Below, piece by piece: positions 5,696-63,925 of a stretch of DNA of 64,000 nucleotides; within the stretch, counting starts at the first letter, position 1; every line of letters begins with the position of its first letter. The position numbers were made by a program, and so were the translations under genes. Origin of the DNA: Sinomonas gamaensis (lineage in GTDB: Bacteria; Actinomycetota; Actinomycetes; Actinomycetales; Micrococcaceae); the NCBI RefSeq assembly GCF_005876955.1, contig NZ_SSCL01000016.1:1-64000 (forward strand). Reading direction: 5' to 3'. A model generated the notes under the pieces. It saw only the letters and a list, made by a program, of their open reading frames with translations. It ran no database searches and was not told where the DNA came from.

Positions 5696-5832
5696 CCCCC
5701 GCTTCTGCACCAACCTCCCCAACTTTAGGGCCGGAGCGCTACAGTTCTCCGGCGTGTTGCGGCGACACACCGGTTTCAGCCGCCGAAAGCTGGGGAATCT
5801 GGCGCGAAAGCTGGGGAGACTGGCAGGGGCGG
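5696..5832. repeat. 21-bp-period intergenic repeat, locus A (inverted pair of doublets)
   Basis: CCCC-headed units begin at 5696 and 5717. Two units in opposite orientation have their GGGG at 5791 and 5812 (plus-strand reading GCGAAAGCTGGGGA). Period is 21 bp on both sides. The inner CCCC and inner GGGG are 74 bp apart. The enclosed part contains an imperfect hairpin, CCGGCGTGT with ACACACCGG. The element fills the space between the converging ChaB and csrA genes, within about 10 bases of each stop region. See loci B, C, D and E for the same period. Confidence 0.8.
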
Positions 5833-5836
5833 CGTC

Positions 5837-6070
5837 TTAGCGACCGCCCAGGAGCCCCTTCAGGATGTCCTCGGCCCCCGACTGCGACTGGGCCGCGGCA
5901 AGATTCGCGTCCGCGACGGCCTCGAAGATCTCCTCGCGCTTGATGGCGAGGTGCCGGGGCGCGTCAATGCCAATGCGTATGCCTTCGCTTCCGCGGCTTT
6001 CGAGGAACGTGATGACGATTTCGTCGCCGATCATGATCTTCTCGCCGGGCTTGCGGGTGAGTACGAGCAT
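5837..6070 (-). CDS. csrA: Carbon storage regulator CsrA
   Basis: A 77-residue RNA-binding protein. MLVLTRKPGEKIMIGDEIVI and IGIDAPRHLAIKREEI are the beta1 and beta5/alpha segments, with Leu4 and the conserved Arg of REEI that contact GGA in target mRNA. In Gram-positive motile bacteria CsrA represses flagellin translation. It is the last gene of the fliM-flhA block, 23 bases after the FlhF-like gene, and the flagellin leader at the far end of the window carries two candidate CsrA sites. The FliW antagonist is not seen in the window. Confidence 0.95.
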   Translation of the reverse strand: MLVLTRKPGEKIMIGDEIVITFLESRGSEGIRIGIDAPRHLAIKREEIFEAVADANLAAAQSQSGAEDILKGLLGGR

Positions 6071-6093
6071 CGCTGTCCTTCCGTGGAGCGCTG

Positions 6094-6966
6094 TCAGAGC
6101 ACCGTCCGTGGTGCCGGGGACCCGTCAACCCAGCCTACGGGTATGCCGAGGGCGTTGACGGTCTGGGGCGAGCGGGTTTCTGCCGCGCCGACCACGGCGA
6201 GCGCGTTGACCGTGAGGCCCGCGGCACGAAAGCACGACGACGCTGCCTCCACCCACTCGGCGGTCTCCTCTGGCTTGTGGCGGGCGTCCACCACGAGCCA
6301 CACCTGATCGGCCCTGAGCGCGGCGGCTGCCGCGAGTGAAGCGTCGAGGGAGTCGAGCGGGCCGAGGGTGAACGCGACCAGCAGAGGGACATCGCGTTCG
6401 ACGGCGTCGGCCCGCGCCGAGATCGCGTCGAGCGGCACTTCGAGGTGCGGCCAGTCGCCCATGAGGTCGCCCGCCGTCGCCCGTGCGCACGGTTCCGCCT
6501 CCCCGCGCGACATCCAGTTCACGACCTCGAGTGGTGCCCCGCCAAAGCCGACGACGAGCACGAAGTCCCCCACGCCGTCGAGCATTCTGGGCACGCGCGG
6601 CTCGGATGGAGGGTCGAACTCGCCGCGCAGCCGCTCGAGAAGCACATCGAATCGCTCGCCCTGGGTTGAAACCTCAGAGGAGTGCAGGGCCTCCTCGGCG
6701 CGGTCGGCGTCGTCGAGCAGCGCAGCGATCCCGGCGCGACCCGCGAGGGAGTGCGGCACCACGGGCGCTTCGGGACCAGGCTCCGGGACCAGCACGGTCG
6801 CCTCGATGTGGCGCCGGCCGAGCAGCCCGGCGAGGCCCGGCTCGAGCACGCGCTCGGCCCGCACGATCCGTGCCTCGGGCCCGTACAGCGCAACCGCCGA
6901 CCGCGTCAGAGCCTCCAGACTGGGGCCTCGAAGGATCTTCTCCGCTTTAGGCACGTACTGCGGCAC
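6094..6966 (-). CDS. Degenerate FlhF-like protein (SRP GTPase fold without P-loop)
   Basis: A 290-residue protein in the flhF position between flhA and csrA. The N-terminal stretch (ILRGPSLEALTRSAVALYGP then EARIVRAE) matches the FlhF N-domain. The place expected for GPTGVGKTT instead reads VLVVGFGGAPLEVVN, and no DTAGR or TKLDE G-motifs are visible; the C-terminal AETRSPQTVNALGIPVGWV still resembles the FlhF ending. It probably cannot bind GTP normally and may act as a structural or placement factor. The GTG at 6966 overlaps the end of flhA by 20 bases; a GTG four codons later is an alternative. Assignment rests mainly on position and end motifs. Confidence 0.6.
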   Translation of the reverse strand: MPQYVPKAEKILRGPSLEALTRSAVALYGPEARIVRAERVLEPGLAGLLGRRHIEATVLVPEPGPEAPVVPHSLAGRAGIAALLDDADRAEEALHSSEVSTQGERFDVLLERLRGEFDPPSEPRVPRMLDGVGDFVLVVGFGGAPLEVVNWMSRGEAEPCARATAGDLMGDWPHLEVPLDAISARADAVERDVPLLVAFTLGPLDSLDASLAAAAALRADQVWLVVDARHKPEETAEWVEAASSCFRAAGLTVNALAVVGAAETRSPQTVNALGIPVGWVDGSPAPRTVL

Positions 6967-9007
6967 CTCTCACCACCCCGATCGTCTCGATCGCGACCTC
7001 CGTGGACGTCACCTCGGCATAGGAGAGCACCGGGACGCCGGACGGCGGCAGCGGGACGAGCTTCCGCATCGCCGGTCTGAGCACCGGCGCGCAGACCAGC
7101 ACGGGGCTCTTGCCAGAGGATTCGGCCGCGGCGACGGCGGCGCTCAGAGAGGACGTGATGGCGTCGAGCTTTGCCTGGTCGAGGACCAGCTGCGTCCCGC
7201 CCTCGGCGGGCCGCAGGTCTTGGACGAGGCTCTGCTCGAGGACAGGTTCGATCGTGATGACCGTGAGCCGGTCCCCGTCCATGAGGCGGCCCACGAGCGC
7301 GGGTCCGATCGCGAGCCGCGCCGCTTCGATGAGACCCTCAGGATCGGTCGACGCCTTGGCCCGCAGGGTCAGGGACTCGTAGATGCGGGTGAGGTCGTTG
7401 ATGGGCACCTGCTCCGCGAGGAGCCCCTGCAGCACCCGGTGGATTTCGGCCAGGGAAAGGAGCCCCGGCGTGAGCTCCTCCACGACCGCCGGGCTGCCGG
7501 CCTTCACCCCTTCGGTGAGCACCCGCACATCCTCCCGTGAGAGCAGCCGCGCGGCGTTGGCCGTCACGATCGAGGAGAGGTGCGTGATCAGCACGCTCAC
7601 CCTGTCGATCACGGTGGCCCCGGTGAGCTCGGCGCTGTGCCGCATCTCGGCGGGGATCCACTTCCCCGCGAGCCCGAAGACCGGCTCGACGACGGCGGCA
7701 CCCGGCAGCGCGTCGAGGAAGTCGCCGAGGGCGAGGAGCTTGCCCGACGGCGCCGTGCCCCGGCCCGCGTCGACGCCGGCGATGCGGATGGCATAGGTCG
7801 CCGGCGGCAGCTCGACGGAGTCGCGGGTCCGCACCGGCGGGATCACCACCCCGAGGTCCATGGCAATCTTGTGCCGCAGCGACTTCACGCGGGCCAGAAG
7901 GTCGTCGGCCGAACCGCCCACGAGGTCCACGAGGTCGGGCGCGAGCAGGATCTCGAGTGGATGGACGCGCATCTCCTCCATGAGTCGCTGGGTCGGGTCC
8001 TGCTCCCCCACATCGGCACCCGAGGCGCCGTTCGTCTCCGAGGAGGCCCCGCCGTCGGCTCTCATTGCATCTTTCGACGCCTGCATCCGCCGCGAGACGA
8101 CGATGAGCACCGCCCCGACCGCGAGGAACGGCAGCGGCGGCATGCCGGGGATGAGCGCCATGACCACCGCGGTGATCCCCGTGATGAGCAGCGCCGTCCG
8201 CGACTGTGAGAGCTGGGAGGAGGCAGCGTGGCCGAGGTCCGCCTCGGCGTTCGAGCGCGTCACGATCATGCCCGTCGAGACCGCCATGAGCAGGGCGGGG
8301 ATCTGCGAGACGAGGCCGTCGCCCATCGTGAGGAGGGAGTAGGTGTTCAGGGCGTCGTTGATCGAGAGGCCGCGCTGGGCCATGCCCACGCCGAGCCCGC
8401 CCACGATGTTGACGATGATGATGACGATGCCGGCAATCGCGTCGCCCTTGACGAACTTCGAGGCGCCGTCCATCGCCCCATAGAAATCAGCCTCCGCCGA
8501 GACCTCCGCGCGCCGCTGCCGCGCGACGACGTCCGTGATGAGGCCGGCGTTGAGGTCGGCATCGATGGCCATCTGCTTGCCCGGCATCGCGTCGAGCGTG
8601 AAGCGCGCGCCGACCTCGGCCACGCGCTCGGCGCCCTTGGTGACGACCACGAACTGGATCACCACGAGGATCACGAACACCACCGCGCCGATGATGAGCG
8701 AGCCGCCCACGGTCACCTTGCCGAACGCCTCGATCACCTGCCCGGCGTAGCCCTGGCCCAGCACGAGCCGGGTCGAGGCGACGTTGAGCCCGAGCCGGAA
8801 CAGCGTGGCCACGAGCAGGAGCGACGGGAAGACGGAAAAGTCGAGTGGCTTCTTCACGAACATGCTCGTCAGCAGGATCACGAGCGCGAGCAGGAGGTTG
8901 CACACGATCAGCACGTCGAGGAGCGGCGCGGGGACTGGCATCACGAGCAGCAGGACGATGCCGACGATCCCCACCGGGACTCCGAGCCGGGCGAAGTTGC
9001 GGTTCAC
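6947..9007 (-). CDS. flhA: Flagellar type III export protein FlhA
   Basis: A 686-residue export-gate protein. The first about 310 residues hold some eight transmembrane segments, starting VNRNFARLGVPVGIVGIVLL, and contain the conserved cytoplasmic loop with GAMDGASKFVKGDA. The remaining about 370 residues form the soluble domain that docks chaperone-substrate complexes. The GTG at 9007 follows AAAGGAG and overlaps the flhB stop (GTGA). The frame stays open far beyond this start into flhB, but that extension is only a shadow of flhB. Confidence 0.95.
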   Translation of the reverse strand: MNRNFARLGVPVGIVGIVLLLVMPVPAPLLDVLIVCNLLLALVILLTSMFVKKPLDFSVFPSLLLVATLFRLGLNVASTRLVLGQGYAGQVIEAFGKVTVGGSLIIGAVVFVILVVIQFVVVTKGAERVAEVGARFTLDAMPGKQMAIDADLNAGLITDVVARQRRAEVSAEADFYGAMDGASKFVKGDAIAGIVIIIVNIVGGLGVGMAQRGLSINDALNTYSLLTMGDGLVSQIPALLMAVSTGMIVTRSNAEADLGHAASSQLSQSRTALLITGITAVVMALIPGMPPLPFLAVGAVLIVVSRRMQASKDAMRADGGASSETNGASGADVGEQDPTQRLMEEMRVHPLEILLAPDLVDLVGGSADDLLARVKSLRHKIAMDLGVVIPPVRTRDSVELPPATYAIRIAGVDAGRGTAPSGKLLALGDFLDALPGAAVVEPVFGLAGKWIPAEMRHSAELTGATVIDRVSVLITHLSSIVTANAARLLSREDVRVLTEGVKAGSPAVVEELTPGLLSLAEIHRVLQGLLAEQVPINDLTRIYESLTLRAKASTDPEGLIEAARLAIGPALVGRLMDGDRLTVITIEPVLEQSLVQDLRPAEGGTQLVLDQAKLDAITSSLSAAVAAAESSGKSPVLVCAPVLRPAMRKLVPLPPSGVPVLSYAEVTSTEVAIETIGVVRGAAVRA

Positions 9008-11134: not shown

Positions 11135-11135
11135 G

Positions 11136-13959: not shown

Positions 13960-13967
13960 GGAGGCGA

Positions 13968-22362: not shown

Positions 22363-23526
22363 ATGGGGGCTCTCGGGTATCTCGCCGCGTCCACACCGCC
22401 GCGACTCGCAAGCGCTGGGTCCGCCGTCGCCATCCCCATCCTTGCAGTGCAGCAGCTTGGCAGCATCGGGATCGGCGGGGCCCTCGTGGCCGTTTCCCTC
22501 GGGCCCAGCATTCTCGCCGCTCCGCTCGTCGGCGCCGTCCTCGACCGGACGCGGCGTCCCGGCTACCTCATCGGGATGGCGGGCCTCCTGACCGCCGCGG
22601 CGTTCTTCGTGGCTGGCTTCCTGGACCGCGTTCCGCTGCCCCTCGAGTTCTCGTCGTTGGCAGTCGCGGGCGCGGTCGCCCCGTTCTACATGGGCGGGCT
22701 GTCCAGCTTCGTGGCCGACGCGATTCGTGACCAGCGAAGATCCTTCGCCTACGACGCCCTCTCCTACAACTTGTCCGCGGTCGCCGGTCCCGCTCTCGTT
22801 GCCGCGATGGCGGCGCTGCTTCCGGCACAAGCCGCCATGTTCGTCCTGTCGGCGGCCGCGCTCCTCGGCGCGGTCTGTGTGGTGGCCATCGGGCTGCCGG
22901 CGCACGGAGCGAGAGAGCACTCCGTCTGGAGCACAACCCTCGCCGGTCTGCGTCACATCTTCGGCCACCGTCCCCTCGCCGTTGTGACCGTTTCGTCCTC
23001 GCTCACGCAGCTCGGCCAAGGTGGGCTCGCGGTCGCCGCCGTCGCACTGTCCATCGACCGGATCGGGTCGCCCGCCGACGCCGCGCTCCTCGTGACGGCC
23101 TTCGCCGCCGGGAGCCTGCTCGGCGCCGTCGTCGAGACCGCGCGGCCCACGCGAGCTCGCCCGCACGTGGTGATGGGCGTCGGCTTCCTCGCGACCGGCG
23201 TCTTCACGATCGCCGCCGTGGCGAACCTGGGAATGGTGTGGACCGTCGTCGCCATCGGCCTCTCGGGCGCGTTCACCGCTTCCACCTCCGCGGCCATGCT
23301 GCTGCTCCGCAACGCCCTGAGCCCGGCCCATCTGCGGGCCCAGATCTTCACCGTCGGGGCGGGCCTTCGGGCCAGCGCATCCGCGGCAGGGGCGGCCCTC
23401 GCCGGTTCGGCCACGGGACTCGGAGGCGCGGTTGCTGTGGCTGCAATCGGAGTGGTGTGGATCGTCTCGGCCGCGCTCATGGCCGCCTACCCGTCGGAGG
23501 CTCCGGTGACCCAGGAGATCCACTAG
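22363..23526 (+). CDS. MFS transporter, probable drug or metabolite exporter
   Basis: A 387-residue membrane protein with about 12 hydrophobic segments. Loop 2-3 reads GAVLDRTRRPGYLIG, a short form of the MFS GxxxDRxxRR motif; Ala/Gly-rich helices fill the rest. It is most like small efflux-type MFS proteins. Ribosome-binding site AGGAAAGGGG precedes the ATG. The gene ends 14 bases before the 21-bp-period repeat array (locus B). Confidence 0.8.
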   Translation: MGALGYLAASTPPRLASAGSAVAIPILAVQQLGSIGIGGALVAVSLGPSILAAPLVGAVLDRTRRPGYLIGMAGLLTAAAFFVAGFLDRVPLPLEFSSLAVAGAVAPFYMGGLSSFVADAIRDQRRSFAYDALSYNLSAVAGPALVAAMAALLPAQAAMFVLSAAALLGAVCVVAIGLPAHGAREHSVWSTTLAGLRHIFGHRPLAVVTVSSSLTQLGQGGLAVAAVALSIDRIGSPADAALLVTAFAAGSLLGAVVETARPTRARPHVVMGVGFLATGVFTIAAVANLGMVWTVVAIGLSGAFTASTSAAMLLLRNALSPAHLRAQIFTVGAGLRASASAAGAALAGSATGLGGAVAVAAIGVVWIVSAALMAAYPSEAPVTQEIH

Positions 23527-23539
23527 CCCCCGCCCCCCG

Positions 23540-23655
23540 CCGAAGTCGGGCCCAGTGAGGCCGAAGTCGGGCCCCCCGACGCCGAAGTCGGGCCCCCTGA
23601 CGCCGAAGTCGGGCCCCCTGACGCCGAAGTCGGGCCCCCACAACCCGACCTCGAC
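23540..23655. repeat. 21-bp-period intergenic repeat, locus B (five units plus one inverted)
   Basis: CCGAAGTCGGGCCC-type units begin at 23540, 23561, 23582, 23603 and 23624, an exact 21-bp period. On the minus strand they read CCCGACTTCGGCGTCAG, the same core as loci C and D. A unit in the opposite orientation (CCCGACCTCG) begins at 23644. The array fills the gap between the convergent MFS and aldo/keto reductase genes, starting 14 bases from one stop and ending about 14 bases from the other. Each CCGA-NN-TCGG core is itself a small palindrome. Confidence 0.9.
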
Positions 23656-23661
23656 GGGTTG
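23641..23661. terminator. Short hairpin next to locus B
   Basis: CAACCCG (23641-23647) and CGGGTTG (23655-23661) form a perfect 7-bp stem with a 7-base loop, 8 bases from the aldo/keto reductase stop. It could end transcription from either side; there is no T-tract. Confidence 0.5.
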
Positions 23662-23668
23662 TCGAACG

Positions 23669-24493
23669 TCAAACTCCGTGGAAGGTGTCGGGGTCCAAAC
23701 CGGTGCGGTGGGCTCGATCGAGGCCGTCGATGGCGATCGCGTCCGCGGAGTCCAGCTCGAAGTCGAAGACCTCGAAGTTCTCGCGGATCCTCGCTGGCGT
23801 GACCGATTTCGGGATCGTCACCGTTCCGGCTTGCAGGTGCCAGCGCAGCACAACCTGCGCGGGGGTCCGTTCGTACTTGTCCGCCAGGCTCAGGATCAGC
23901 GGGTCTTCGAGGATGAGCCCTTGGCCGAGCGGGGACCACGCCTCGGTGTGGATTCCGAGCTCGTGGTGCAGCTTCCGCAGCTGGGTCTGGGTCAAGTACG
24001 GGTGGAGTTCGATCTGGTTGACTGCCGGGACCACGGAGCCCACCTCGAGGATCCGTGAGATGTGGTTCGGCTGGAAGTTCGATAGGCCTATGGCCCTGAT
24101 GCGCCCGTCCTTGTAGAGGGTTTCGAAGGCCCGCCAAGTGTCGGGGTAGAGCCCACGGTCGGGCGTGGGCCAGTGGATCAGGTAGAGGTCTAGGTAGTCG
24201 AGTCCAAGCTTCTGGAGGGAAACCTCGAAGGCGCGGAGGGTCGAGTCATAGCCCTGCTCACCGTTCCAGAGCTTGGAGGTGACGAAGAGCTCGTCGCGGG
24301 CGATCCCGGATTCGGCGATGGCCTTCCCGACTCCTTCCTCGTTCTTGTAGATCGCCGCAGTGTCGATGCTGCGGTATCCCACCTTGAGGGCCTCCGAGAC
24401 GGCCGCCGCGCATTCGTCAGGCGCTACTTTGAACACCCCGAATCCGAGCTGGGGCATCTGGACACCGTTGTTGAGCGTCACCGTGGGGATCAT
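23669..24493 (-). CDS. Aldo/keto reductase
   Basis: A 274-residue NADPH-dependent oxidoreductase of the AKR5-like class, TIM-barrel fold. The catalytic tetrad is visible: Asp44 and Tyr49 in SIDTAAIYKNE, Lys74 in VTSKLWN, His107 in YLIHWP. IPKSVTPARIRENFEVFDF binds the NADP phosphate. It would reduce an aldehyde or keto-sugar. It lies 54 bases after the ABC permease gene on the same strand and probably shares its transcript, hinting at reduction of the imported compound. Confidence 0.9.
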   Translation of the reverse strand: MIPTVTLNNGVQMPQLGFGVFKVAPDECAAAVSEALKVGYRSIDTAAIYKNEEGVGKAIAESGIARDELFVTSKLWNGEQGYDSTLRAFEVSLQKLGLDYLDLYLIHWPTPDRGLYPDTWRAFETLYKDGRIRAIGLSNFQPNHISRILEVGSVVPAVNQIELHPYLTQTQLRKLHHELGIHTEAWSPLGQGLILEDPLILSLADKYERTPAQVVLRWHLQAGTVTIPKSVTPARIRENFEVFDFELDSADAIAIDGLDRAHRTGLDPDTFHGV

Positions 24494-24547
24494 GGGGTCG
24501 TGAGTTCCTCTCTGAGGGATTGATGTTGTCGAAGCTGGCGGAGTATT

Positions 24548-25459
24548 TCAGCCCTTGACGGCGCCGCGGAGGAGTCCTCGGACGAAGAGCTTCCCGAGGA
24601 GGAGGTAGACGAGGATCGTCGGGAGGGCGGCGATGAGCGCTCCGGCCATCTGGACGTTCCATTCGACGTAGTCGCTCGCCGCCAGGTTCTGGATGGCTAC
24701 GGTGACCGGGGCCAGCCGGGGGTTGTTGAGGACTACGACGCCGATGATGAAGTCGTTCCAGATGGTGGTGAACTGCCAGAGGAGGACGACGGCGAACGCC
24801 GGGCCGGCGACCGGGAGCACGATGCGGCGGTAGATGCCGAAGAATCCGCACCCGTCGATCTGGCCGGCCTCGATCACCTCCTGCGGAATCCCGCCGAACG
24901 CGTTGCGGAACATGAGGGCGCTGATGGGGATGCCGAGAATGCAGTGGACCACGATGACGCCGCCGATCGAGCCATACAGCCCGAGCTTCTGCAGCACGTA
25001 CACCATGGGGATGAGCACCGCCTGGTACGGCAGGAACATGCCGAAGAGGAACAGCAGGAACACCGTCTCGGAGCCGCGGAAACGCCACTTGGCGAAGGCG
25101 TAGCCGTTGATCGAGCCCATGAACGCGGAGACGAGCGCGGCGGGGATGGTGATCAGCGCACTGTTCGCGACGTTCGGGCCGACCTGCTGCCAGGCCGTCT
25201 GGAAGCTCTCGAACGACAGGCCGAGGGGCAGCTGCCACATGTGCGAGACATCTGCCTGGGCGAAGGACTTGAACCCTGTGGCCACGAGGATGTAGACGGG
25301 AGCGAGCATGTAGACCAGCGCGGCCACGAGTGCCGCGTAGACCAGTGCCCGCGCGACGCGCTGGGCCGGGGACCGGCGTGCGCTTCGAACTGCGGGAGCC
25401 GGTGCGGCGGGGGCTGCCGGAGCGAGGAGTTCCTTCACGGGCATCTCTTTCACGGTCAT
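24548..25459 (-). CDS. Carbohydrate ABC transporter permease (MalG type)
   Basis: A 303-residue inner-membrane permease with six transmembrane helices. EVIEAGQIDGCGFFGIYRRI is the EAA loop that contacts the ATPase, and it starts with a Pro/Ala-rich cytoplasmic leader. With the upstream permease and binding protein it forms a CUT1-type sugar importer. No ATPase gene is in this cluster, so a shared MsiK-type ATPase is likely (inference from actinobacterial practice). The ATG overlaps the stop of the first permease (ATGA). Confidence 0.9.
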   Translation of the reverse strand: MTVKEMPVKELLAPAAPAAPAPAVRSARRSPAQRVARALVYAALVAALVYMLAPVYILVATGFKSFAQADVSHMWQLPLGLSFESFQTAWQQVGPNVANSALITIPAALVSAFMGSINGYAFAKWRFRGSETVFLLFLFGMFLPYQAVLIPMVYVLQKLGLYGSIGGVIVVHCILGIPISALMFRNAFGGIPQEVIEAGQIDGCGFFGIYRRIVLPVAGPAFAVVLLWQFTTIWNDFIIGVVVLNNPRLAPVTVAIQNLAASDYVEWNVQMAGALIAALPTILVYLLLGKLFVRGLLRGAVKG

Positions 25460-26385
25460 CGCTTGGCCTTTCGCTCGACGCTCATCAGGTGCGGCACCAG
25501 GAGCACGGTCGCGATGAGGATCATGACGACGGCGACCGCCGCCGAGAGGGAGAAGCGGTTGGAGGAGAAGGCGAGCTGGTACATGTTGAACCCGAGCGTG
25601 TCTTCCGCGAACGCGGGCCCGCTCCCCGTCATGGAGGCGATGAGGTCGAAGAGCTTGATCGAGAGCATGCCGGTGATGATCACGGCGCTGAAGGTGACCG
25701 GCTTGAGGAGTGGGATGACGATCCTGCGGTACAGCGCCCAGGTTCCGCACCCGTCCATGACGGCGGCCTCCATGAGCTCCTGCGGCAACGCCCTCAGGCC
25801 CGCGAGGTAGAGCGCCATCACGTACCCGGACATCTGCCAGGCCGCCGCGACCGAGACGGAGAGGATCCCCCACGTGGAATCCGTGTACCAGCCGTTGGCG
25901 AGGAATCCGAGCCCGGCCGAGCGGAGGAGGCTGTTCACCCCGGCCTGGGGGTCCAGAAGCCAGTGCCAGATGACGCCGGTGACCACGGGCGAGATCGCGA
26001 AGGGAAGGATGAAGATGGTCCGGAAGAGCCCTTCGATCCTGATCTTGCTGTTGATCAGCGCCGCGAGGGCGAATCCGATCACGAGGCACTGGACGATGAA
26101 CGAGGCAGAGAAGAGGCCGAGGTTCCGCAGGTCGATGAGGAACCGCGAGTCGCCGAAGAGCCTCGCGAAATTCTTGAATCCCACGAGCGTCGAATCGGGG
26201 ACGATTCCGGTCCAATTGATCACCGACGTGTACATGGTCCAGGCCACGAACACGTACACGAAGACCGCGATGGCGATCATCGACGGGACGAGGACCAGCA
26301 CCGAGGCGAGGCGGTCTCCCTTGAGCCGCCGCCGTCGCCTCTGGACTGCCTGCCGGCGCTCGGATGGTGCCGCGACGACGGTCAT
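25456..26385 (-). CDS. Carbohydrate ABC transporter permease (MalF type)
   Basis: A 309-residue permease with six transmembrane helices and the EAA loop ELMEAAVMDGCGTWALYRRI. The N-terminus is basic (RRRRRLKGDR), typical of the first permease of CUT1 importers. GTG or ATG at 26385 overlaps the stop of the binding-protein gene by 4 bases. It pairs with the second permease to form the membrane channel. Confidence 0.9.
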   Translation of the reverse strand: MTVVAAPSERRQAVQRRRRRLKGDRLASVLVLVPSMIAIAVFVYVFVAWTMYTSVINWTGIVPDSTLVGFKNFARLFGDSRFLIDLRNLGLFSASFIVQCLVIGFALAALINSKIRIEGLFRTIFILPFAISPVVTGVIWHWLLDPQAGVNSLLRSAGLGFLANGWYTDSTWGILSVSVAAAWQMSGYVMALYLAGLRALPQELMEAAVMDGCGTWALYRRIVIPLLKPVTFSAVIITGMLSIKLFDLIASMTGSGPAFAEDTLGFNMYQLAFSSNRFSLSAAVAVVMILIATVLLVPHLMSVERKAKR

Positions 26386-27713
26386 GCCGCGAATCCCGCG
26401 TCGTCCGCGGCCTGTACGAGCTTGGACTGGACACTAGCCACGTCCTTGCTCGTGGCCATGACGTTGAGGATGTTCCCGAAGTCGGTCACGAAGCTCGCCT
26501 TGGCCGCCGAGCCGTTGTAGACGCTGGGGACGATGTTCCCCTTGTCGAACTCCTTCGCCGACCACAGCTCGTACTCGTCGTAGTTGGAGGTGTCGCGGTC
26601 CGAGCGCGGCGAAATGGACCCCTTGATCGGGTTGAACGGGTTCTGGCCCGCGGCGCTGCCGCACAGCTTGAGCCAGGCCATGGCGGAGTCGGGGTCCTTC
26701 ACGCCCTTGGGCAGCCCGAACGAGTCGGATGCGAGGTCGTAGACTCCGTTGGAGTCCGGAACGGCGGCGAAGCCGTAGTCCTTGAACTTCTTGGCCTTGA
26801 GGTAGCCGTTGACGAAGTCGGACTGGATGATCATCGCAGCCTTCCCGTCGGAGAGGAGGCTCGGGATGTCGCCGCGCTGGAAGCTCAGGTAGTCGCTGTT
26901 GACGTAGTTGAACATCTCCTTGAGGGTCTCGAGCGAGTCCTTCACCTTGGGGTCGCTCCACTTCGTCGCACCCGTGAAGAGGCCCTTGTAGCCGTCGGCG
27001 CCCAGTTTGCTGATCAGGATCGTCTCGAACACCAGGCTCGTCTGACCGGGCGTCGCCTCCGCCATGCCCATGGCCGGGATGCCCATGGCCTTGAGCTTGT
27101 CGCCGAGGTTGAAGAACTCGTCCCAGGTGGCAGGCGGGGTTCCTCCGACCTTATCCATGATGGGCTTGCTGAACCACAGCACGTTCGCCCGGAGGATGTC
27201 CACCGGGACCGAGTACGGCTTTCCCTGATAGGACGCGATGTCGATGAGCGACTTCGGGAAGACCTTGTCGTAGCCCTCCTGGGAGTAGAGGGAATCAAGC
27301 GGTTCCATCTTGTCCGCGGTGACCCAGGTCTGGATGATCTCGGCGCCGACGTGGACCTGGAACGAGTCGGGCGGATTGCCGCCGAGGATCCTCGTGGTGA
27401 GGACGGTCTTCATGTTCGCGCCTGCCCCGGCGCCCCCGCCGATGGCCGAATTCGTGATCTTCGCGCTCGAGTACTGGGCCTGGAACTGCTTGTAGAGCGC
27501 GTCCAGGGCCAGCGCGTCGCCGCCGCTTGTCCAGAACGAGAAGATCTCCAGCGCGCCTACCGCGCTCGCGTTGACCGTCGTCTTCCCGGCGGGAGAGGAA
27601 CCTTCGGACCCGCATGCCGCCAGCAGGCCAGCCCCGGCCACGGCTGTCGCGCCGAAGAGGAAGCGCCGCCTGTTCATGCTCGCGCGGCCGATCGAAGAGA
27701 CTGTGTTGCCCAT
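26382..27713 (-). CDS. Carbohydrate ABC transporter substrate-binding lipoprotein
   Basis: A 443-residue family 1 extracellular solute-binding protein. Residues 14-20 (NRRRFLF) form a twin-arginine-like motif and the lipobox LAAC places the lipidated Cys at residue 34, so it is probably a Tat-exported lipoprotein. ARILGGNPPDSFQVH-like and GDIPSLLSDGKAAMIIQSDF segments are typical of sugar binders. The ATG follows GAAGGAG. About 75-110 bases upstream lies a perfect TGCGAA-N4-TTCGCA palindrome, so the importer operon is probably controlled by the adjacent IclR protein. Ligand unknown. Confidence 0.9.
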   Translation of the reverse strand: MGNTVSSIGRASMNRRRFLFGATAVAGAGLLAACGSEGSSPAGKTTVNASAVGALEIFSFWTSGGDALALDALYKQFQAQYSSAKITNSAIGGGAGAGANMKTVLTTRILGGNPPDSFQVHVGAEIIQTWVTADKMEPLDSLYSQEGYDKVFPKSLIDIASYQGKPYSVPVDILRANVLWFSKPIMDKVGGTPPATWDEFFNLGDKLKAMGIPAMGMAEATPGQTSLVFETILISKLGADGYKGLFTGATKWSDPKVKDSLETLKEMFNYVNSDYLSFQRGDIPSLLSDGKAAMIIQSDFVNGYLKAKKFKDYGFAAVPDSNGVYDLASDSFGLPKGVKDPDSAMAWLKLCGSAAGQNPFNPIKGSISPRSDRDTSNYDEYELWSAKEFDKGNIVPSVYNGSAAKASFVTDFGNILNVMATSKDVASVQSKLVQAADDAGFAA

Positions 27714-27786
27714 GGTTGCTCCTTCGCAATGAGGCAGGAAAGGCGGAACGTCGCAGAGTTCGACACGCAGAGGCCGAATCCAAAAT

Positions 27787-27820
27787 TGAGATGTTCCTCA
27801 CATATGCGAAGATATTCGCA
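27787..27820. promoter_or_regulatory. Predicted IclR operator pair upstream of the ABC importer operon
   Basis: TGCGAAGATATTCGCA at 27805-27820 is a perfect 16-bp palindrome (TGCGAA-N4-TTCGCA). A weaker relative, TGAGATGTTCCTCACA, lies at 27787-27802, exactly 18 bp away. The remaining space between this point and the IclR gene (to 28063) holds only one isolated CCGAAGTCGG core at 27885 and the locus C array. Confidence 0.75.
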
Positions 27821-27977
27821 CTGCACTTTCAGGTCGTCAAGGGAGCGTCAGGGGGCGGCCGCAATGAGGCGGCGGATTACGTCGCCGAAGTCGGCGCACC
27901 GACGATTGACTTGTCGTCGGGTCGAGCACTCGGCTCATGCGCGCGGAGCCTCCACTCGTCGTCGTACGCCATGCCCC

Positions 27978-28061
27978 CCGACCTCGGCGCCACACCCCCC
28001 GACCTCGGCACCACACCCCCCGACCTCGGCGCCACCCCGCCCGACCTCGGCGCGGAGCACG
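27978..28061. repeat. 21-bp-period intergenic repeat, locus C (four units)
   Basis: CCGACCTCGGC units begin at 27978, 27999, 28020 and 28041, an exact 21-bp period, each followed by RCCACMCC-type sequence. The array ends two bases before the IclR stop codon (minus strand). An isolated core in the other orientation lies at 27885-27894. Confidence 0.9.
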
Positions 28062-28063
28062 GG

Positions 28064-28813
28064 TCAGGCGCGCCGGGCCGGCCGGGCCATCTGGGCCGCG
28101 ATCGATTGCACGGCTCTGCCGTATCGGGCCAGGTCCTCGGGCGTGGGCCGGACCCCGACGAGCGAGACGCCGACGGCGAATCCGGGCGAGGACGCGTGGC
28201 TGGGGACGGCAGCGGCGACGCCGACGACGGCGGGATGGATGCTGCCCGCCTCGATGGCGAACCCGCGGTCACGCGCGGGCCGAATCTTGCTCAGAAGCCC
28301 CTCAGGCCCAGACTGGCCAGAGGCGAACATGCGCCGGAGGGCGTCGTCGGGGAGGTTCGCGAGGAGGGCGATCCCGACGGCAGTGCGGGCCGCGGGCAGC
28401 CTGTCCCCGACATGGGCGGAGAGGGAGAGCGGGGCCCTCCCCTCGTGGCGCGCGACGTACAGCACCTCCGTCCCGTCGAGGATCGCGGCCTGGACGAGCT
28501 CGCGGGCAAGGAGCGCCGACTCGGCGCAGGCCTCATGGAACGCTTTCACCTGTTCGAACGAATAGAGGTACGCGCCCCCGAACTCGACAAGCCGCTGGCC
28601 GAGCCGGTATCCGCCGTCGCAGTGCTGGACGAGGCCGCCGGCTTCGAGGGCGGTGCAGATGTTCCGCGTCGAGGAGCGGGCGGCCCCGATCTCGCGGGCG
28701 AGCTCCGTGACGGTCATCGGAACGGACGGATGGCGGGCCATCAGGCCCAGGAGCTCGATCGCTCGGGACACTGCCGGAGCGGGTCCGGGTTCGCCTTTGG
28801 GGATGGAGGTCAT
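28064..28813 (-). CDS. IclR family transcriptional regulator
   Basis: A 249-residue regulator. Residues about 15-75 form a winged helix-turn-helix (AVSRAIELLGLMARHPSVPM, TVTELAREIGAARSSTRNIC); the rest is the GAF-like effector domain, with GRAPLSLSAHVGDRLPAART and TAVGIALLANL. The ATG at 28813 (MTSIPKG) is chosen because it sits at family length and faces a free intergenic region. It is divergent from the dehydrogenase gene, and paired palindromes lie between them and at three other promoters of the region, which it probably controls. Confidence 0.9.
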   Translation of the reverse strand: MTSIPKGEPGPAPAVSRAIELLGLMARHPSVPMTVTELAREIGAARSSTRNICTALEAGGLVQHCDGGYRLGQRLVEFGGAYLYSFEQVKAFHEACAESALLARELVQAAILDGTEVLYVARHEGRAPLSLSAHVGDRLPAARTAVGIALLANLPDDALRRMFASGQSGPEGLLSKIRPARDRGFAIEAGSIHPAVVGVAAAVPSHASSPGFAVGVSLVGVRPTPEDLARYGRAVQSIAAQMARPARRA

Positions 28814-28855
28814 GACTCGAGCTTCCTCACTCTTCGTCCTCCGAGTGGAACTATC

Positions 28856-28889
28856 TGCAAATACCTTATCAAATGCGAAGACGTTCTTG
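28856..28889. promoter_or_regulatory. Predicted IclR operator pair between iclR-like gene and dehydrogenase
   Basis: TGCAAATACCTTATCA (28856-28871) and TGCGAAGACGTTCTTG (28874-28889) each match 9 of 12 defined positions of TGCGAA-N4-TTCGCA and lie 18 bp apart, as at the other sites. Likely used for autoregulation and for the divergent dehydrogenase. Confidence 0.6.
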
Positions 28890-28963
28890 TATCCTGATCT
28901 GGCCTCCTCCCCCGAGGAACAGCGCCCGCGGCAGCGAAGCCGTCCGAGATCAAAAGGAAGCCG

Positions 28964-30031
28964 ATGACCGCATCGCCCTTGGACCTGACCGAGAAGCTCA
29001 TCACGGAAGATGTCGTCATCCACGCCGCAGGCGACCTGCGCGTCGTGAAGCGCCCGCTCGAGCGCCCGCGCGACGACGAGGCGATCGTCCAGATCGCCTT
29101 CGGAGGAATCTGCGGCTCGGACCTCCACTACTGGCAGCACGGCGCGGCCGGAGCCTCAGTGCTCAAGGACCCAATGGTGCTCGGGCACGAGGTGGTCGGC
29201 ACCGTGCTGGCCGCGCCCGCGGACGGCTCCGGCCCAGAAGCCGGCACGCCGGTCGCAGTCCACCCCGCTGGGGACCTGGGAACCGACCACGCCTACCCCG
29301 AGGGCCGTCCCAACCTCTCGCGCAGCGCGACGTATCTCGGGAGCGCAGCGCGCCATCCCCACACGTCGGGGGCGTTCGGCACCCTCGCGATCCTGCCCGC
29401 CAGGATGCTGCGAACCCTTCCGAACGGACTGTCGCTGCGAGGCGCGGCGCTGGCGGAGCCTGCGAGCGTCGCCTGGCACGCCGTCGAGCAAGCGGGCGAC
29501 GTCAAGGGCAAGCGCGTTCTGGTCATCGGCTGCGGACCGATCGGCGGCCTGACGATCGCGGTGCTCAGGCGTTTCGGTGCCAGCGAGATCATCGCCGTCG
29601 ACCTCCATGAGGAGGCCCTCGAGCGTGGCCGGGCCCTCGGCGCAACGACGACACTCCTGGCCACTGACGAAGATGCGGTCGAAGCAGTCCAAGCAGACAT
29701 CGCCATGGAATCCTCGGGCAGCCCGCATGGACTCTCCGCGGCGATCGCCGCAACGCGACCGGGAGGACGCGTCGTCATGGTTGGCCTCCTGCCCAACGGC
29801 AAGCAGCCGATCCCGATCGCGACAGCCATTGCCCGCGAGCTCGAACTCGTGGGCTCGTTCCGGTTCACCGAGGAGATGTCCGCAGTGCTCGAGGCGTTGG
29901 CCGACGGCTCGCTGGCGGTCAGCCCGCTCGTCACGCACGTCTTCCCCCTCACCAAGACGCATGAGGCCTTCGAGACAGCACGCAACCCGAAGGTCTCGGG
30001 CAAGGTCCTGATCGACTTCAGGACGGCCTAG
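28964..30031 (+). CDS. Zinc-family alcohol/polyol dehydrogenase (L-idonate 5-dehydrogenase-like)
   Basis: A 355-residue medium-chain dehydrogenase. Catalytic-site motifs are FGGICGSDLHYWQHG (Cys ligand) and VLGHEVVGTV (His-Glu); EPASVAWHAVE supplies the third ligand; VLVIGCGPIGGL is the NAD(P)-binding Rossmann glycine motif. The lobe that in most relatives carries four cysteines for structural zinc reads HPAGDLGTDHAYPEGRPNLS and has none. It probably oxidises a sugar acid or polyol. AAAAGGAAG precedes the ATG. The gene is divergent from the IclR regulator with operators between. Confidence 0.85.
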   Translation: MTASPLDLTEKLITEDVVIHAAGDLRVVKRPLERPRDDEAIVQIAFGGICGSDLHYWQHGAAGASVLKDPMVLGHEVVGTVLAAPADGSGPEAGTPVAVHPAGDLGTDHAYPEGRPNLSRSATYLGSAARHPHTSGAFGTLAILPARMLRTLPNGLSLRGAALAEPASVAWHAVEQAGDVKGKRVLVIGCGPIGGLTIAVLRRFGASEIIAVDLHEEALERGRALGATTTLLATDEDAVEAVQADIAMESSGSPHGLSAAIAATRPGGRVVMVGLLPNGKQPIPIATAIARELELVGSFRFTEEMSAVLEALADGSLAVSPLVTHVFPLTKTHEAFETARNPKVSGKVLIDFRTA

Positions 30032-30035
30032 CCGC

Positions 30036-30098
30036 CCGACCTCAGCGGCACGGGACCCGACCTCGGCAGCACGAGACCCGACCTCGGCGGGGCGCCGA
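30036..30098. repeat. 21-bp-period intergenic repeat, locus D (three units)
   Basis: CCGACCTC(A/G)GCRGCACG-type units begin at 30036, 30057 and 30078, exact 21-bp period, the first only 4 bases after the dehydrogenase stop codon. Same orientation relative to the upstream stop as in locus E and (on the other strand) opposite to locus C. Confidence 0.88.
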
Positions 30099-30172
30099 CG
30101 GGGCGTGAGCGGAAGGCAACGCACTGTTTACCGGCACCCCGGAAGACACCCCTTGACGAGACGACGAATAAG

Positions 30173-30206
30173 CGCGAAACTCTTCTCATATGTGATCGAC
30201 GTCGCA
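30173..30206. promoter_or_regulatory. Predicted IclR operator pair upstream of the RraA-like gene
   Basis: CGCGAAACTCTTCTCA (30173-30188) and TGTGATCGACGTCGCA (30191-30206) match 10 and 9 of 12 defined positions and are 18 bp apart. TTGACG at 30153-30158 is a possible -35 element just upstream, so a bound repressor would cover the -10 region. Confidence 0.6.
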
Positions 30207-30246
30207 GAAAAATCCTGCGGCGGCCAGAACAGAGGAACCACACACC

Positions 30247-30882
30247 ATGGCCAACACACTTGAACTGACGGTCCGCAAGGCCAGCGCCTGGAGCCGTCCC
30301 CCGCGGACCCTTGTGGAGGCGTTCAAGGCCTTCCCCGTGGCCAACATCGGCGACGCGATGGAGCGGCTCGGCATGGTCGATGCCGGGATCAGCGCCATCT
30401 GGGACGGCGCGGCCGCGGTGGGATCCGCGCTCCCCGTGCTCGGCGCGGCGGGCGACAACGCCGCGGTGATCGAGGCCCTCGATCACATCCAGCCCGGCGA
30501 CATGGTGGTCATCAACGGCTTCGGCCACCGAGAGCGCGCCCTCGTCGGCGAGCAGCTCTCGCAGCGGTTCGCCGCCGCCGGCGCCGTGGGTGCAGTGATC
30601 GACGGCTGCATCCGGGACAAGAAGACCATCACCGAGATCCGCTTTCCCGTCTTCGCGCGGGGCACCACCCCGGCAGGGCCCTTCAAGAACGGCCCGGGCG
30701 TCATCGGCGAGCCGGTCGCAGTGGGCGGCATCGTCGTCGCCCCCGGCGACATCGTCGCCGCCGACGCTGACGGCGTCGTCATCATCCCCCAGGCCCGCGC
30801 CGAGGAGATCCTCACCCGCGTCATCGCCGTCGCGGAGCACGAGGCGGAGATGACCGCCGAGGTCTCCAAGGCCTACAGCTGA
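30247..30882 (+). CDS. RraA-like aldolase/demethylmenaquinone methyltransferase family
   Basis: A 211-residue protein of the RraA / 4-hydroxy-4-methyl-2-oxoglutarate aldolase family. VANIGDAMERLGMVDAGISA starts the fold; GAVIDGCIRDKKTITEIRFP contains the Arg-Asp pair that binds substrate and metal; GDIVAADADGVVIIPQ is the conserved C-terminal block. In a catabolic cluster it more probably acts as a class II aldolase or oxaloacetate decarboxylase-type enzyme than as an RNase regulator. It is 48 bases upstream of the MHS symporter and probably the first gene of that operon. Confidence 0.85.
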   Translation: MANTLELTVRKASAWSRPPRTLVEAFKAFPVANIGDAMERLGMVDAGISAIWDGAAAVGSALPVLGAAGDNAAVIEALDHIQPGDMVVINGFGHRERALVGEQLSQRFAAAGAVGAVIDGCIRDKKTITEIRFPVFARGTTPAGPFKNGPGVIGEPVAVGGIVVAPGDIVAADADGVVIIPQARAEEILTRVIAVAEHEAEMTAEVSKAYS

Positions 30883-56251: not shown

Positions 56252-56311
56252 CGGAATGCCTTTCTATCCTCGTTGATATGCGGCTGGGTTGGAGTGTTGT
56301 GGCGGGGGGTT

Positions 56312-57316: not shown

Positions 57317-57359
57317 TGGGCTTTCCTTCGCTTGCCGGTGTCATCAACAATAGACCCGC

Positions 57360-57433: not shown

Positions 57434-57506
57434 TTGGGTCGAGTGACGTTGTCGGCCCGAACGGCTGGGCTACGATGAAGGGCAGATCCGTGAAGGGGAG
57501 GAAGCC

Positions 57507-58890: not shown

Positions 58891-58988
58891 GCGCCCAGCC
58901 TTCCACAGTCTCGGCTCGTTTCGACCAAGGCTCGTTTCGATGGCTGTGCCCGCGGGTAGCGACATCGTCAGGAAGAGGGAGCGGTTCG

Positions 58989-59888: not shown

Positions 59889-59918
59889 CCCCCGACCCGT
59901 CAGCCGCCGACGCCGGAA

Positions 59919-60215: not shown

Positions 60216-60645
60216 CGAAGCCGCCAGCTCCCGGGCTCGAGAGTGAGCCCGACGACGACTGTTCCTCCTGCAGTGACGCGGCCGCCGCGTGCCACGATTG
60301 GCGGAGCGGCTCGAGCAAGGCGATCGCCTCACGCGTGCGGGCCACGTCGCGGTGGATGTTGGCGTTGATGAGGGCGGTCCGGACGTAGTCGTAGATGCCG
60401 CGAAGGCCCTCGGCGCCGTTCCACGTGCCGGGCTTGAGCGTTGACGTGAGCTCGGCGACGATGTCCTGCGCGTGGAGCAGATTGTCGCTCGCTGCCTGCC
60501 ACTGGGCGGCATCTTGGGCGGCGGACGCTCGGTGGAGGTCGAGGAGCAGCCGGTCGTAGAGCATGGTGAGGAACCGCGCGGGGCTGGCCGAGAGGATGGC
60601 GTCACGGGTGTACTGCTGGCGGGCGCGGGCGGCGTGGATGGTCAC
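60208..60645 (-). CDS. fliS: Flagellar export chaperone FliS
   Basis: A 145-residue chaperone of flagellin. RQQYTRDAILSASPARFLTM and LYDRLLLDLHRASAA form the N-terminal FliS core; TLKPGTWNGAEGLRGIYDYV and RTALINANIHRDVARTREAI the C-terminal helices. The tail is Ser/Gly-rich. It lies 16 bases after fliD. Confidence 0.93.
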   Translation of the reverse strand: MTIHAARARQQYTRDAILSASPARFLTMLYDRLLLDLHRASAAQDAAQWQAASDNLLHAQDIVAELTSTLKPGTWNGAEGLRGIYDYVRTALINANIHRDVARTREAIALLEPLRQSWHAAAASLQEEQSSSGSLSSPGAGGFVG

Positions 60646-60661
60646 TGACGTCCTTTCGGGC

Positions 60662-62077: not shown

Positions 62078-62108
62078 GGTTCACACTCCTTTGTCTCGTG
62101 AGGACGCC

Positions 62109-62149
62109 GATGGCGGCCGGAGGGGTAGCGGTGCCCTCCAGCCGCCATC
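62109..62149 (-). terminator. Hairpin terminator after fliC
   Basis: GATGGCGGC (62109-62117) pairs with GCCGCCATC (62141-62149) and GGAGGG (62119-62124) with CCCTCC (62134-62139), one mismatch, 9-base loop. It lies 26 bases after the fliC stop. There is no long T-tract. Confidence 0.75.
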
Positions 62150-62174
62150 AACACTCGATCGGCTCTCGATGCGC

Positions 62175-63020
62175 TTAGCCGAGGAGCTTGAGGATGCCCT
62201 GGCCGGACTGGTTGGCCTGGGCAAGCATTGCCGTACCGGCCTGCGAGAGGATGTTGTCCTTGGTGTAGTTCACCATCTCCTGCGCCATGTCAGTGTCGGT
62301 GATGTGCGACTTCGCGGCGGTCAGGTTCTGAGCCGAGGTGTTCGCGATGTTCAGCGCGTGGGTCAGCCGGTTCTGCGAAGCGCCAAGGCTAGCGCGGCTG
62401 GTCGAGACCGCCGTGATCGCCGTGTCGATCGCGGTGATCGTGGTCTGCGCGTTGGCGCTCGTGTCCACCTTGAAACCGGTGCCCGCGGTGGTCCCGTCCG
62501 TCGACGCGAGGCTGCCAACGTCCGTCGACGTGTTCGCCGTCTTCACAGTAATCTGGCTGTCCGCGTCGCCATTCGCGCCGATCTGGAAGTTCAGCGAGCT
62601 GCCCTTGAGCAGATCGATGCCGTTGAACTTCGTTCCATCGGTGATGCGGAAGAGTTCCTTGGACAGCTCGTCCGCTTCAGACTGGATCGCGTTGCGTGAG
62701 TCTGCGTTGTTGGAATCGTTCGCACCCTGGACGGCGAGGTCGCGCATGCGCTGCAGGATCGAGTGGACTTCGCCGAGGGCGCCGTCAGCCGTCTGGATGA
62801 GGCTGATGCCGTCCTGGGCGTTGCGGGCCGCGATCTGGTTGCCGCTCACCTGGGCCTGGAGGCCCTGGGAGATGGAGAGGCCCGCAGCGTCGTCGGCGGC
62901 GGTGTTGATGCGGAGACCGCTCGAGAGCTTGGCCATCGAGTTCGACATATCCGTCGAGGTCTTGCTGAGGTTGAGGTAGGCCTGCTGGGCCATGAGGTTG
63001 GTGTTGACGGTCAGAGCCAT
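62175..63020 (-). CDS. fliC: Flagellin
   Basis: A 281-residue short flagellin. Residues about 1-140 (LTVNTNLMAQQAYLNLSKTS, LSSGLRINTAADDAAGLSIS) and about 195-281 (LNIANTSAQNLTAAKSHITD, ILSQAGTAMLAQANQSGQGI) form the D0/D1 domains; the exposed middle is only some 55 residues. The ATG at 63020 follows GGAGGA by 10 bases. Transcribed from a sigma-28-type promoter and probably repressed by CsrA through its leader. Confidence 0.97.
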   Translation of the reverse strand: MALTVNTNLMAQQAYLNLSKTSTDMSNSMAKLSSGLRINTAADDAAGLSISQGLQAQVSGNQIAARNAQDGISLIQTADGALGEVHSILQRMRDLAVQGANDSNNADSRNAIQSEADELSKELFRITDGTKFNGIDLLKGSSLNFQIGANGDADSQITVKTANTSTDVGSLASTDGTTAGTGFKVDTSANAQTTITAIDTAITAVSTSRASLGASQNRLTHALNIANTSAQNLTAAKSHITDTDMAQEMVNYTKDNILSQAGTAMLAQANQSGQGILKLLG

Positions 63021-63030
63021 GGTGTTTCTT

Positions 63031-63079
63031 TCCTCCGTGAGTGAGAAATAGGTACTGCTCCGGGCCCGTCCGTGGGCCC
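63031..63079 (-). promoter_or_regulatory. Predicted CsrA-binding leader of fliC
   Basis: In the mRNA sense, GGGCCC-ACGGAC-GGGCCC (63079-63062) forms a 6-bp stem with GGA in the loop, a few bases after the predicted start of transcription. About 24 bases on, ACGGAGGA (63038-63031) places a second GGA motif over the Shine-Dalgarno. This is the two-site layout of CsrA-repressed flagellin leaders. Confidence 0.7.
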
Positions 63080-63090
63080 TCAACGGCTAG

Positions 63091-63117
63091 CTATCGGCTT
63101 GGGGACCGGGCGCGTTA
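63091..63117 (-). promoter_or_regulatory. Sigma-28 (FliA/SigD)-type promoter of fliC
   Basis: Minus strand GCTAAC (TAAC at 63117-63114), 15 bases, GCCGATAG at 63098-63091. Predicted leader of about 65 bases. Confidence 0.88.
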
Positions 63118-63159
63118 GCGAGGGGAGGAAAAAATTGTGCCCGGGGCTACTCTGACTTC

Positions 63160-63756
63160 ATGGAAGGGCTGACCTTCGTCCCCGCCAATGAGGCGTCCCC
63201 AGAGGACCTCGACCTGATCTTCGGCCGCCGCGGCGAGCCGGGAAATTGCCGGTGCCAGTGGTTCAAGCACTCCGCGGCCGAATATCGGGCGATGGCGCCC
63301 GAAACCCGAGCGGCCCTCCTGCGCGAGCAGACCGACTGCGGCCACCCCGAAGCGTCCGCGACCACAGGCATCGTTGCATATCTCGATGGCGAACCGGTGG
63401 GATGGTGCGCGGTCGAACCCCGCACCGCGTACCCCAGGCTTGCGAGCGCGAAGATTCCGTGGGCGGGGCGAACCGAGGATCCAACGGACGACGGCGTGTG
63501 GGCGGCGACGTGCTTTGTCGTCCGGTCGGGCTTTCGTCGGCGGGGTATCGGGCGCGCTCTGGCGCAGGCGGCCGTCCATTTCGCCCGGGACCGCGGAGCG
63601 CAGGCCCTCGAGGGCTACGCCCTCATCCTCGCTCCCGGCAAGGAGGCGATCTGGGGAGAACTCTATGTCGGCAGCCCCCGCATGTTCGCCGACGCCGGCT
63701 TCACGGAAGTAAGCCGGCCCTCCTCGCGACGAGCGGTCATGCGGATCGATTTCTGA
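63160..63756 (+). CDS. GNAT family N-acetyltransferase
   Basis: A 198-residue acetyltransferase. VWAATCFVVRSGFRRRGIGR and ALAQAAVHFARDRGAQALEG form the acetyl-CoA-binding motif A (RRRGIGRAL), with a conserved CxC-like NCRCQWFKHSAAEYR stretch near the N-terminus found in a common actinobacterial subgroup. Acceptor unknown. Divergent from fliC. It ends 10 bases before a 21-bp-period repeat element. Confidence 0.85.
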   Translation: MEGLTFVPANEASPEDLDLIFGRRGEPGNCRCQWFKHSAAEYRAMAPETRAALLREQTDCGHPEASATTGIVAYLDGEPVGWCAVEPRTAYPRLASAKIPWAGRTEDPTDDGVWAATCFVVRSGFRRRGIGRALAQAAVHFARDRGAQALEGYALILAPGKEAIWGELYVGSPRMFADAGFTEVSRPSSRRAVMRIDF

Positions 63757-63765
63757 GGCCAACTT

Positions 63766-63925
63766 CCCCATCTTTTCCGCCGCATTCCCCAACCTTCGCG
63801 CCGGATTCCCCAACTATCGCCCCGTCCTCGGCGCGTTTCCGGGCTATTCATGGGGCAAGCTCGATCGACCAGTGCAAATTCGGGGGAACTGGGCTCGAGT
63901 GCTGGGGAATCCGGCCCGGGTCTGC
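63766..63925. repeat. 21-bp-period intergenic repeat, locus E (inverted triplet and doublet)
   Basis: CCCCAWCYWTCGCGCC-type units begin at 63766, 63787 and 63808; inverted units have GGGG at 63883 and 63904. Period 21 bp on both sides, and the inner CCCC-GGGG interval is 75 bp, against 74 bp at locus A. The element starts 10 bases after the acetyltransferase stop codon. The rest of the window, to 64000, shows no gene. Confidence 0.8.

Follow-up and report, generated by a model that had tools for sequence, protein, structure and literature searches.

The window analyzed here, a stretch of 64,000 nt (contig NZ_SSCL01000016.1 of assembly GCF_005876955.1, Sinomonas gamaensis), contains five loci with sequences repeated at a period of 21 bp, as found by direct reading and by two repeat finders. 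The flanking genes were assigned by Pfam. The first locus (5690-5824), between the gene of a ChaB/Rho_N protein and csrA, is composed of a left arm (5690-5736, + strand) with two type I units beginning TCCCC at 5695 and 5716, about 35 bp past the stop codon of the ChaB/Rho_N gene, a centre (5737-5783), and a right arm (5784-5824, - strand) of two units, about 13 bp from the csrA stop; the innermost units are 80 bp apart, measured 5'-to-5'. The second locus (23538-23655) lies between the convergent genes of an MFS transporter and an aldo/keto reductase, and includes a type II array of five units (23538-23639, - strand), 13 bp past the MFS-gene stop, adjoined by a lone type II unit in the opposite orientation (23644-23655, + strand). 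The third is a type II array of four units (27967-28053, + strand); the nearest stop, about 13 bp away, is that of an IclR-type regulator gene on the - strand. The fourth (30035-30090, + strand), between a zinc alcohol dehydrogenase gene and an RraA-like gene, is a type II array of three units, which starts 4 bp past the dehydrogenase stop and takes the minority orientation (see below). The last locus (63764-63918) consists of a left arm of three type I units (63764-63824, + strand), 8 bp past the stop of a GNAT acetyltransferase gene, and a weak right arm of two degenerate units (about 63885-63918, - strand). Both type I loci are thus two inverted arms around a centre, and not single arrays.

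The initial annotation had described five loci with an exact 21-bp period beside stop codons, and all five were confirmed, the stops being 4-13 bp away, and about 35 bp away for the arm at 5690-5736. By setting the score cutoff at 18 or higher, four period-21 arrays were detected in the window against none in 40 first-order Markov sequences; the first locus scores below 18 and hence is not among these four. Next to the first locus, the segment 5233-6070 carries a protein with ChaB and Rho_N domains, convergent with csrA (by Pfam), and its stop codon is contained in repeated form within a 15-bp repeat, GCCGGAAGAAGTAGG, of about 3.5 copies at 5642-5693. The csrA gene is unusual in actinobacteria.

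The type II unit consists of a 12-bp core (CCCGAYYTCGGC) and a 9-bp linker, and the core, CCGANNTCGG, is a near-palindrome. The type I unit resembles TTCCCCAACTTTCGCGCCGGA and is arranged in two inverted arms round a centre, while the type III pattern is GGTGAYYYCG at 21 bp; no palindrome was seen by eye in either type I or type III. The sequences indicate that types II, IIb, and III are related, since 16 of 21 bases are equal between II and IIb (a value reached by 4 of 5000 shuffles) and 15 of 21 between II and III (24 of 5000). By the same comparison of rotations and shuffles, types I and IV gave no demonstrable relation to types II and III. The pattern that had been proposed to link types I and II proved weak, the best ungapped rotation giving 12 of 21 bases, which was matched by 416 of 5000 shuffles. 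From one genome to another, and in some cases inside one genome, the units have very different sequences, and the period stays at 21 bp across unit families of unlike sequence. At two loci (L082, 7019-7312; L188, 1118-1474), two versions of the unit alternate and generate a higher-order period of 42 bp.

The repeat family was then followed outside the window. Within the genome of S. gamaensis, a search for two type II units spaced by 21 bp (up to three mismatches) gave 142 matches against none in the reversed control, and the single-unit pattern was too weak (76 matches vs 102 in the control). A looser pair pattern identified 105 pairs in this genome and 96, 60, and 36 in three others among the 15 Sinomonas genomes, with 0-4 in the other 11 and 0-2 per genome in controls. 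The genomes G003 and G004 gave zero pairs by this loose type II pattern despite many type III pairs (257 and 214, respectively, with control 0 in both); type III pairs numbered 16 in G013, and 1-3 in G000, G002, and G010. The exact type III matches of G004 between 0.64 and 2.97 Mb are all on the + strand among the matches listed. Strict type I pairs were found in four of 395 genomes of the family, all four Sinomonas, and looser type I pairs in G000 (21) and G010 (38), with 0 in four others. A three-unit pattern applied to 84,980 species genomes, a collection that may omit the records of S. gamaensis itself, yielded 26 stretches, of which 24 belong to two Sinomonas species (to which the S. gamaensis loci align at about 67-87%) and two to Clostridia metagenome bins. 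Among 58 relatives, 15 of them in the genus, four genomes outside the genus carried one or two matches, apparently by chance.

A motif-free tandem search at periods of 12-45 bp in 864 kb from ten Sinomonas genomes detected 28 intergenic arrays at 21 bp, some of which are neighboring pieces of one locus, and 13 at 42 bp, while every other period gave at most six (six at period 32). Three of the ten genomes were without a period-21 array in this sample, and 200 kb of contig C12 of S. gamaensis also contained none. Seven genomes from other genera, sampled over 360 kb in total, had no intergenic period-21 array, and three of them had one inside a predicted gene. A coding repeat (21 bp being seven codons) was rejected, because periods at other multiples of 3 do not reach a comparable frequency between genes. 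A genuine repeat family with genome-wide 21-bp phasing and enrichment at gene ends had been expected, and both features were observed; the contrary outcome, with one or the other lacking, was not seen. When the search across Micrococcaceae proposed in the initial annotation was run, the repeats were confined to Sinomonas in the genomes covered, and are not general in the family.

The spacing of units is rigid. Among type II pairs with a free gap of 14-44 bp between unit starts in three genomes, 146 of 147 are at 21 or 42 bp, and the one exception is at 27 bp. Agreement between linkers is 0.74 within arrays and 0.50 between arrays of one genome, while that between cores is 0.91 and 0.86, respectively. 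The rigid pair spacing together with the low linker agreement indicates that substitutions are common in linkers, and changes in length very rare. Whole units are more alike within an array (0.83) than between arrays (0.71), indicating that duplication also helps to keep the period. Among 49 spacings between type I units, 38 are at 20-22 bp, six at 31-32, five at other values, and none at 23-30; four of the five spacings of 32 bp are from a single genome, G007, and possibly not independent.

Placement was examined in the gaps between genes, which were called with a simple, purpose-written codon-usage finder that makes some false genes across arrays. In an unselected sample of ten genomes, a period-21 array is present in 20 of 834 intergenic gaps. 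Convergent gaps account for 12 of the 20 (n=153), tandem gaps for 5 (n=520), and divergent gaps for 3 (n=161); for convergent gaps against all others (8 of 681), p is 3.2e-5. Seven other periods gave 0-5 gaps each in the same set, and three further period-21 arrays fall inside predicted genes. Rates are given by the unselected samples (864 kb; 834 gaps) only, because the 147 loci for which context was recorded were mostly chosen for holding arrays. The intergenic arrays thus prefer gene ends, as do the REP/BIME elements.

Of the 147 arrays with context, whose total matches that of the type II pairs above only by chance, 135 have a neighboring stop codon. For all types and without a distance filter, the array is sense to the gene of the nearest stop in 86 cases (median distance, 21.5 bp) and antisense in 49 (median, 228 bp). 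The sense direction prevails by 37:6 in convergent junctions with clearly unequal stop distances, and by 20:6 in tandem junctions within 100 bp; 36 of the 147 arrays, flagged for false gene calls, were left out of these polarity tests and kept in the counts of order given below. Types II and III were also counted apart, since the direction of type I is the convention of the analyst, and gave 26:2 in convergent junctions of unequal distances and 14:5 in tandem junctions within 100 bp. Types II and III are therefore asymmetric sites with one direction relative to transcription, with some exceptions, including the window array at 30035-30090. Type IV shows no polarity (5:4 convergent, 2:1 tandem). 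Neighboring arrays less than 300 bp apart (n=38, all types) are arranged as sense-antisense in 31 cases, in the same direction in six, and in the reversed order in one; at 300-2500 bp (n=12), ten are sense-antisense and two in the same direction. For types II and III, the neighboring arms are sense-antisense in 21 cases, in the same direction in four, and reversed in none.

In L078, L086, L092, L297, L300, and other two-arm elements of types II and III, the linkers read in the unit direction are A/C-rich in one arm and G/T-rich in the other, so that one physical strand is A/C-rich throughout. A replication-strand bias was considered and rejected: arm types differ in their G/T content, but in G002 and G003 this difference showed no clean match to the replichores. 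The stretch of G004 from 2.972 to 3.044 Mb yielded no origin marker.

The distance between arms was analyzed for 19 type I elements (ten in G000, five in G010, two in G007, and one each in G009 and Sinomonas sp. ASV322). The innermost 5'-to-5' distances are 80 (four elements), 81 (four), 91, 92, 101, 102 (four), 112, 122, 124, and 133 bp, and all 19 are within 1.5 bp of one series with steps of 10.5 bp (R 0.944, p 4.5e-8). When each distinct length was counted once, the p value was 1.8e-4; the best fitted period was 10.55 bp, and none of 20,000 uniform draws was as strong. For the G010 element at 459 kb the innermost pair (102 bp) was used, and the alternative of 190 bp, equal to 208 on the same measure, is 1.5 bp off the series. 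The window element at 63764-63918 did not pass the one-mismatch filter and is excluded from the 19; by hand count, its arm distance is 101 bp with the better - strand unit, which is in the series, and 78 bp with the degenerate unit, 2.5 bp off. Among 11 type I centres compared, mean likeness was no greater than that of shuffles (0.508 vs 0.492), and the best pair (0.672) exceeded the best shuffled pair (0.574), so that not all centres need be independent and some may be related. No helical series across the centre was detected for type II (n=27, R 0.36, p 0.03), where several distances are self-matches of the near-palindromic unit, for type III (n=11, p 0.2), or for type IV (n=6, p 0.15), four of whose six places are shared with type III. 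The argument from arm-to-arm phasing is therefore carried by type I only.

Dispersed intergenic repeats are common, and few of them carry a direct physical signature of their reader. In Sinomonas, the two-turn period is kept while the unit sequence changes between species, the main types keep their direction, and type I arms step by one turn. The explanation that we favor, tentatively and at slightly less than an even chance, is that in the arrays a Sinomonas protein would bind double-stranded DNA at clustered putative sites, which are phased, polar, and located at gene ends. The observations call for an agent able to sense both full helical turns and direction, and one protein, or several in a row, lying on a single DNA face would do both. 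Since units are exactly two helical turns apart, all the bound proteins would be on one DNA face and could then bind together, and inverted type I arms at whole-turn distances would allow both arms to act as one nucleoprotein structure. As most units of types II and III share one direction with respect to the ending gene, we infer that the complex would act with polarity on whatever arrives from that gene. The arriving machine would most simply be RNA polymerase, and where genes end the complex would serve as a roadblock or an insulator. The initial annotation had already envisaged a protein that could bind every 21-bp unit on one face, and the rigid spacing, the polarity, and the type I steps support the idea of such a putative protein. 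If a protein binds, a half-turn change in spacing should break the binding. A fuller version, that a dedicated Sinomonas roadblock protein stops or buffers transcription on polar phased arrays, with both arms in one complex, and that sites and protein co-evolve fast between species, is unlikely as a whole.

Plasmid iterons are direct repeats about two helical turns apart, with protein bound on one face at a single replication origin. The arrays resemble them in having direct repeats at two-turn spacing, but sit at many gene ends (ispH, ffh, metG, pcrA, and others) and not at one origin beside a Rep gene. On the best reading, the arrays may work somewhat like phage stoperators. In L5-type mycobacteriophages, stoperators lie in short spaces between genes and are asymmetric; their direction follows that of transcription, and the block is lost when they are reversed (PMC9283540). 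The likeness is one of working only: stoperators are 13-mers on phage genomes bound by the phage repressor, whereas the Sinomonas arrays are tandem, helically phased, and chromosomal, without a known repressor.

The main rival is neutral spreading, in which a dispersed minisatellite or MITE-like element without a cell function grows by tandem duplication of its units, spreads between gene ends, and is kept where it is least harmful. The homogenized units within arrays are in agreement with this model, and gene ends would be a safe place. The same applies to the patchy abundance of loose type II pairs (four of 15 genomes rich, 0-4 pairs elsewhere), with the reservation that some species low in these pairs have many pairs of another type, and to the lack of arrays in 200 kb of the same S. 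gamaensis genome. At the junction behind ispH in 15 species, seven have arrays of at least two units, two a single unit (by eye), and six none, and the unit type (II, IIb, or III) varies with the species. A neutral element, however, does not predict the near-absence of length changes beside diverged linkers, nor the fixed direction, the single arm order, or the type I helical steps, and the genes between distant arms vary from case to case. No Y1 transposase (RAYT-type; IS200/IS605-type, PF01797) was detected in any of 15 Sinomonas genomes, as compared with 5 of 14 control genomes; this counts against a mobile element driven by that type of transposase, and an origin as RAYT-driven REPs is disfavored because of it. 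MIRU/VNTR minisatellites are tandem intergenic repeats of variable copy number, and the Sinomonas arrays differ from these in keeping the 21-bp period across differing units, the direction bias, and the inverted arms. Neutral spreading is, on balance, somewhat unlikely.

The phased sites proposed above were further weighed against an element acting at the RNA level, in which the inverted arms, once transcribed, would fold into a long hairpin and thereby end transcription or shield the RNA 3' end. Bidirectional terminators and stabilizers of mRNA 3' ends were among the possibilities named in the initial annotation, and as the main idea they are not well supported. The fold z-scores of the five window stretches are 0.39, 0.89, 0.47, -2.24, and -2.50; the last two agree with a hairpin, while two single arrays (0.39 and 0.89) fold no better than shuffles, and many arrays are without a partner arm. 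No terminator-like site was found at the arrays within 23400-30300. Inverted arms pair strongly in silico, and own arms pair on average somewhat better than same-type arms of other elements (means of -79 vs -71, -91 vs -88, and -61 vs -55 kcal/mol). When arms were swapped within genome and type for 22 elements, however, own arms paired no better (-74.4 vs -73.1 for swapped, p 0.24). Selection for a hairpin was rejected, as no covariation of arms was detected within genomes (unit identity, p 0.58 for nine elements and 0.71 for five). A very stable centre hairpin (z of -3.5 or lower against simple base shuffles) exists in 6 of the 25 paired-arm rows with a z-score, out of a table of 28 rows in which two elements are counted twice. 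The prs-rplY junction has a lone plain hairpin of the GACGACGG..CCGTCGTC type in 6 of the 11 species in which the junction was read in the correct orientation (by eye), which also fits an RNA element. Since a hairpin forms equally well in either arm order, the observed order is not explained by it, and neither are the 10.5-bp steps; in an RNA helix, one turn takes about 11 bp. The RNA-level explanation is quite unlikely.

Least probable, and very unlikely in our estimate, is a topology element similar to BIMEs, at which gyrase or a nucleoid protein would handle supercoils between convergent genes. The preference for convergent junctions is in line with it, as are descriptions of REP/BIME elements in passages of two papers (PMC2817692, PMC3733652), according to which BIME-2 binds gyrase, and REPs occur preferentially between genes in unidirectional or convergent arrangement. 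A simple topology site, however, would not be expected to have a polarity relative to the gene. The same passages describe REP/BIMEs as GC-rich intergenic repeats of many copies, with species-specific versions and inverted pairs (PMC2817692, PMC3733652), and on these points the Sinomonas arrays are alike. The arrays are unlike REP/BIMEs in the exact 21-bp tandem phase, the unit that is not palindromic in all types (by eye), and the lack of a Y1 transposase. An imperfect palindrome, as is typical of REP units, is approached by the type II core, whereas types I and III gave none by eye. Among the titles and abstract openings covered, which include few subscription journals, nothing matched in the literature on 21-bp or tandem intergenic repeats in Arthrobacter, Sinomonas, and Actinobacteria or at convergent genes, and Rfam gave no match in the window at gathering score. 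The initial annotation knew of no named family that fits, and within these sources this statement holds.

The genes beside arrays in the S. gamaensis genome, as identified by NCBIfam, include ispH, metG, ffh, thiC, pcrA, prs, and those for the succinate-CoA ligase beta subunit and ribosomal protein L25; a match to RmuC was below the NCBIfam cutoff. Arrays of S. mesophila align with the metG and ispH junctions (L125 with L076 and L132 with L087, respectively), and behind prs, G000 has a type I element. Comparison of the ispH, metG, and prs junctions indicates that at equivalent places arrays are present, absent, or different in sequence. On a tree of the 15 species from ispH and rplY, in which 5 of 12 inner branches are well supported, array types cut across clades. 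A gene cassette with arrays as its ends was rejected, because distant arms enclose different genes in different cases. In a single listed case, a similar gene recurs between arms, namely past metG in G000 and at the corresponding aligned position of S. mesophila (L125 vs L076); we take this gene to be DUF559-like, and its shorter copy had no match in NCBIfam. Two near-perfect long palindromes of similar sequence, ..GCAGGGTG / CACCCTGC.., are located downstream of rplY in G000 (L165) and in the prs-rplY gap of G010 (L167), and possibly represent a second dispersed element. Next to rplY in G001 (L170), tandem repeats of about 31 bp, CTCGGGTACAGATAACCCTC.., end in a palindrome of that 31-bp unit.
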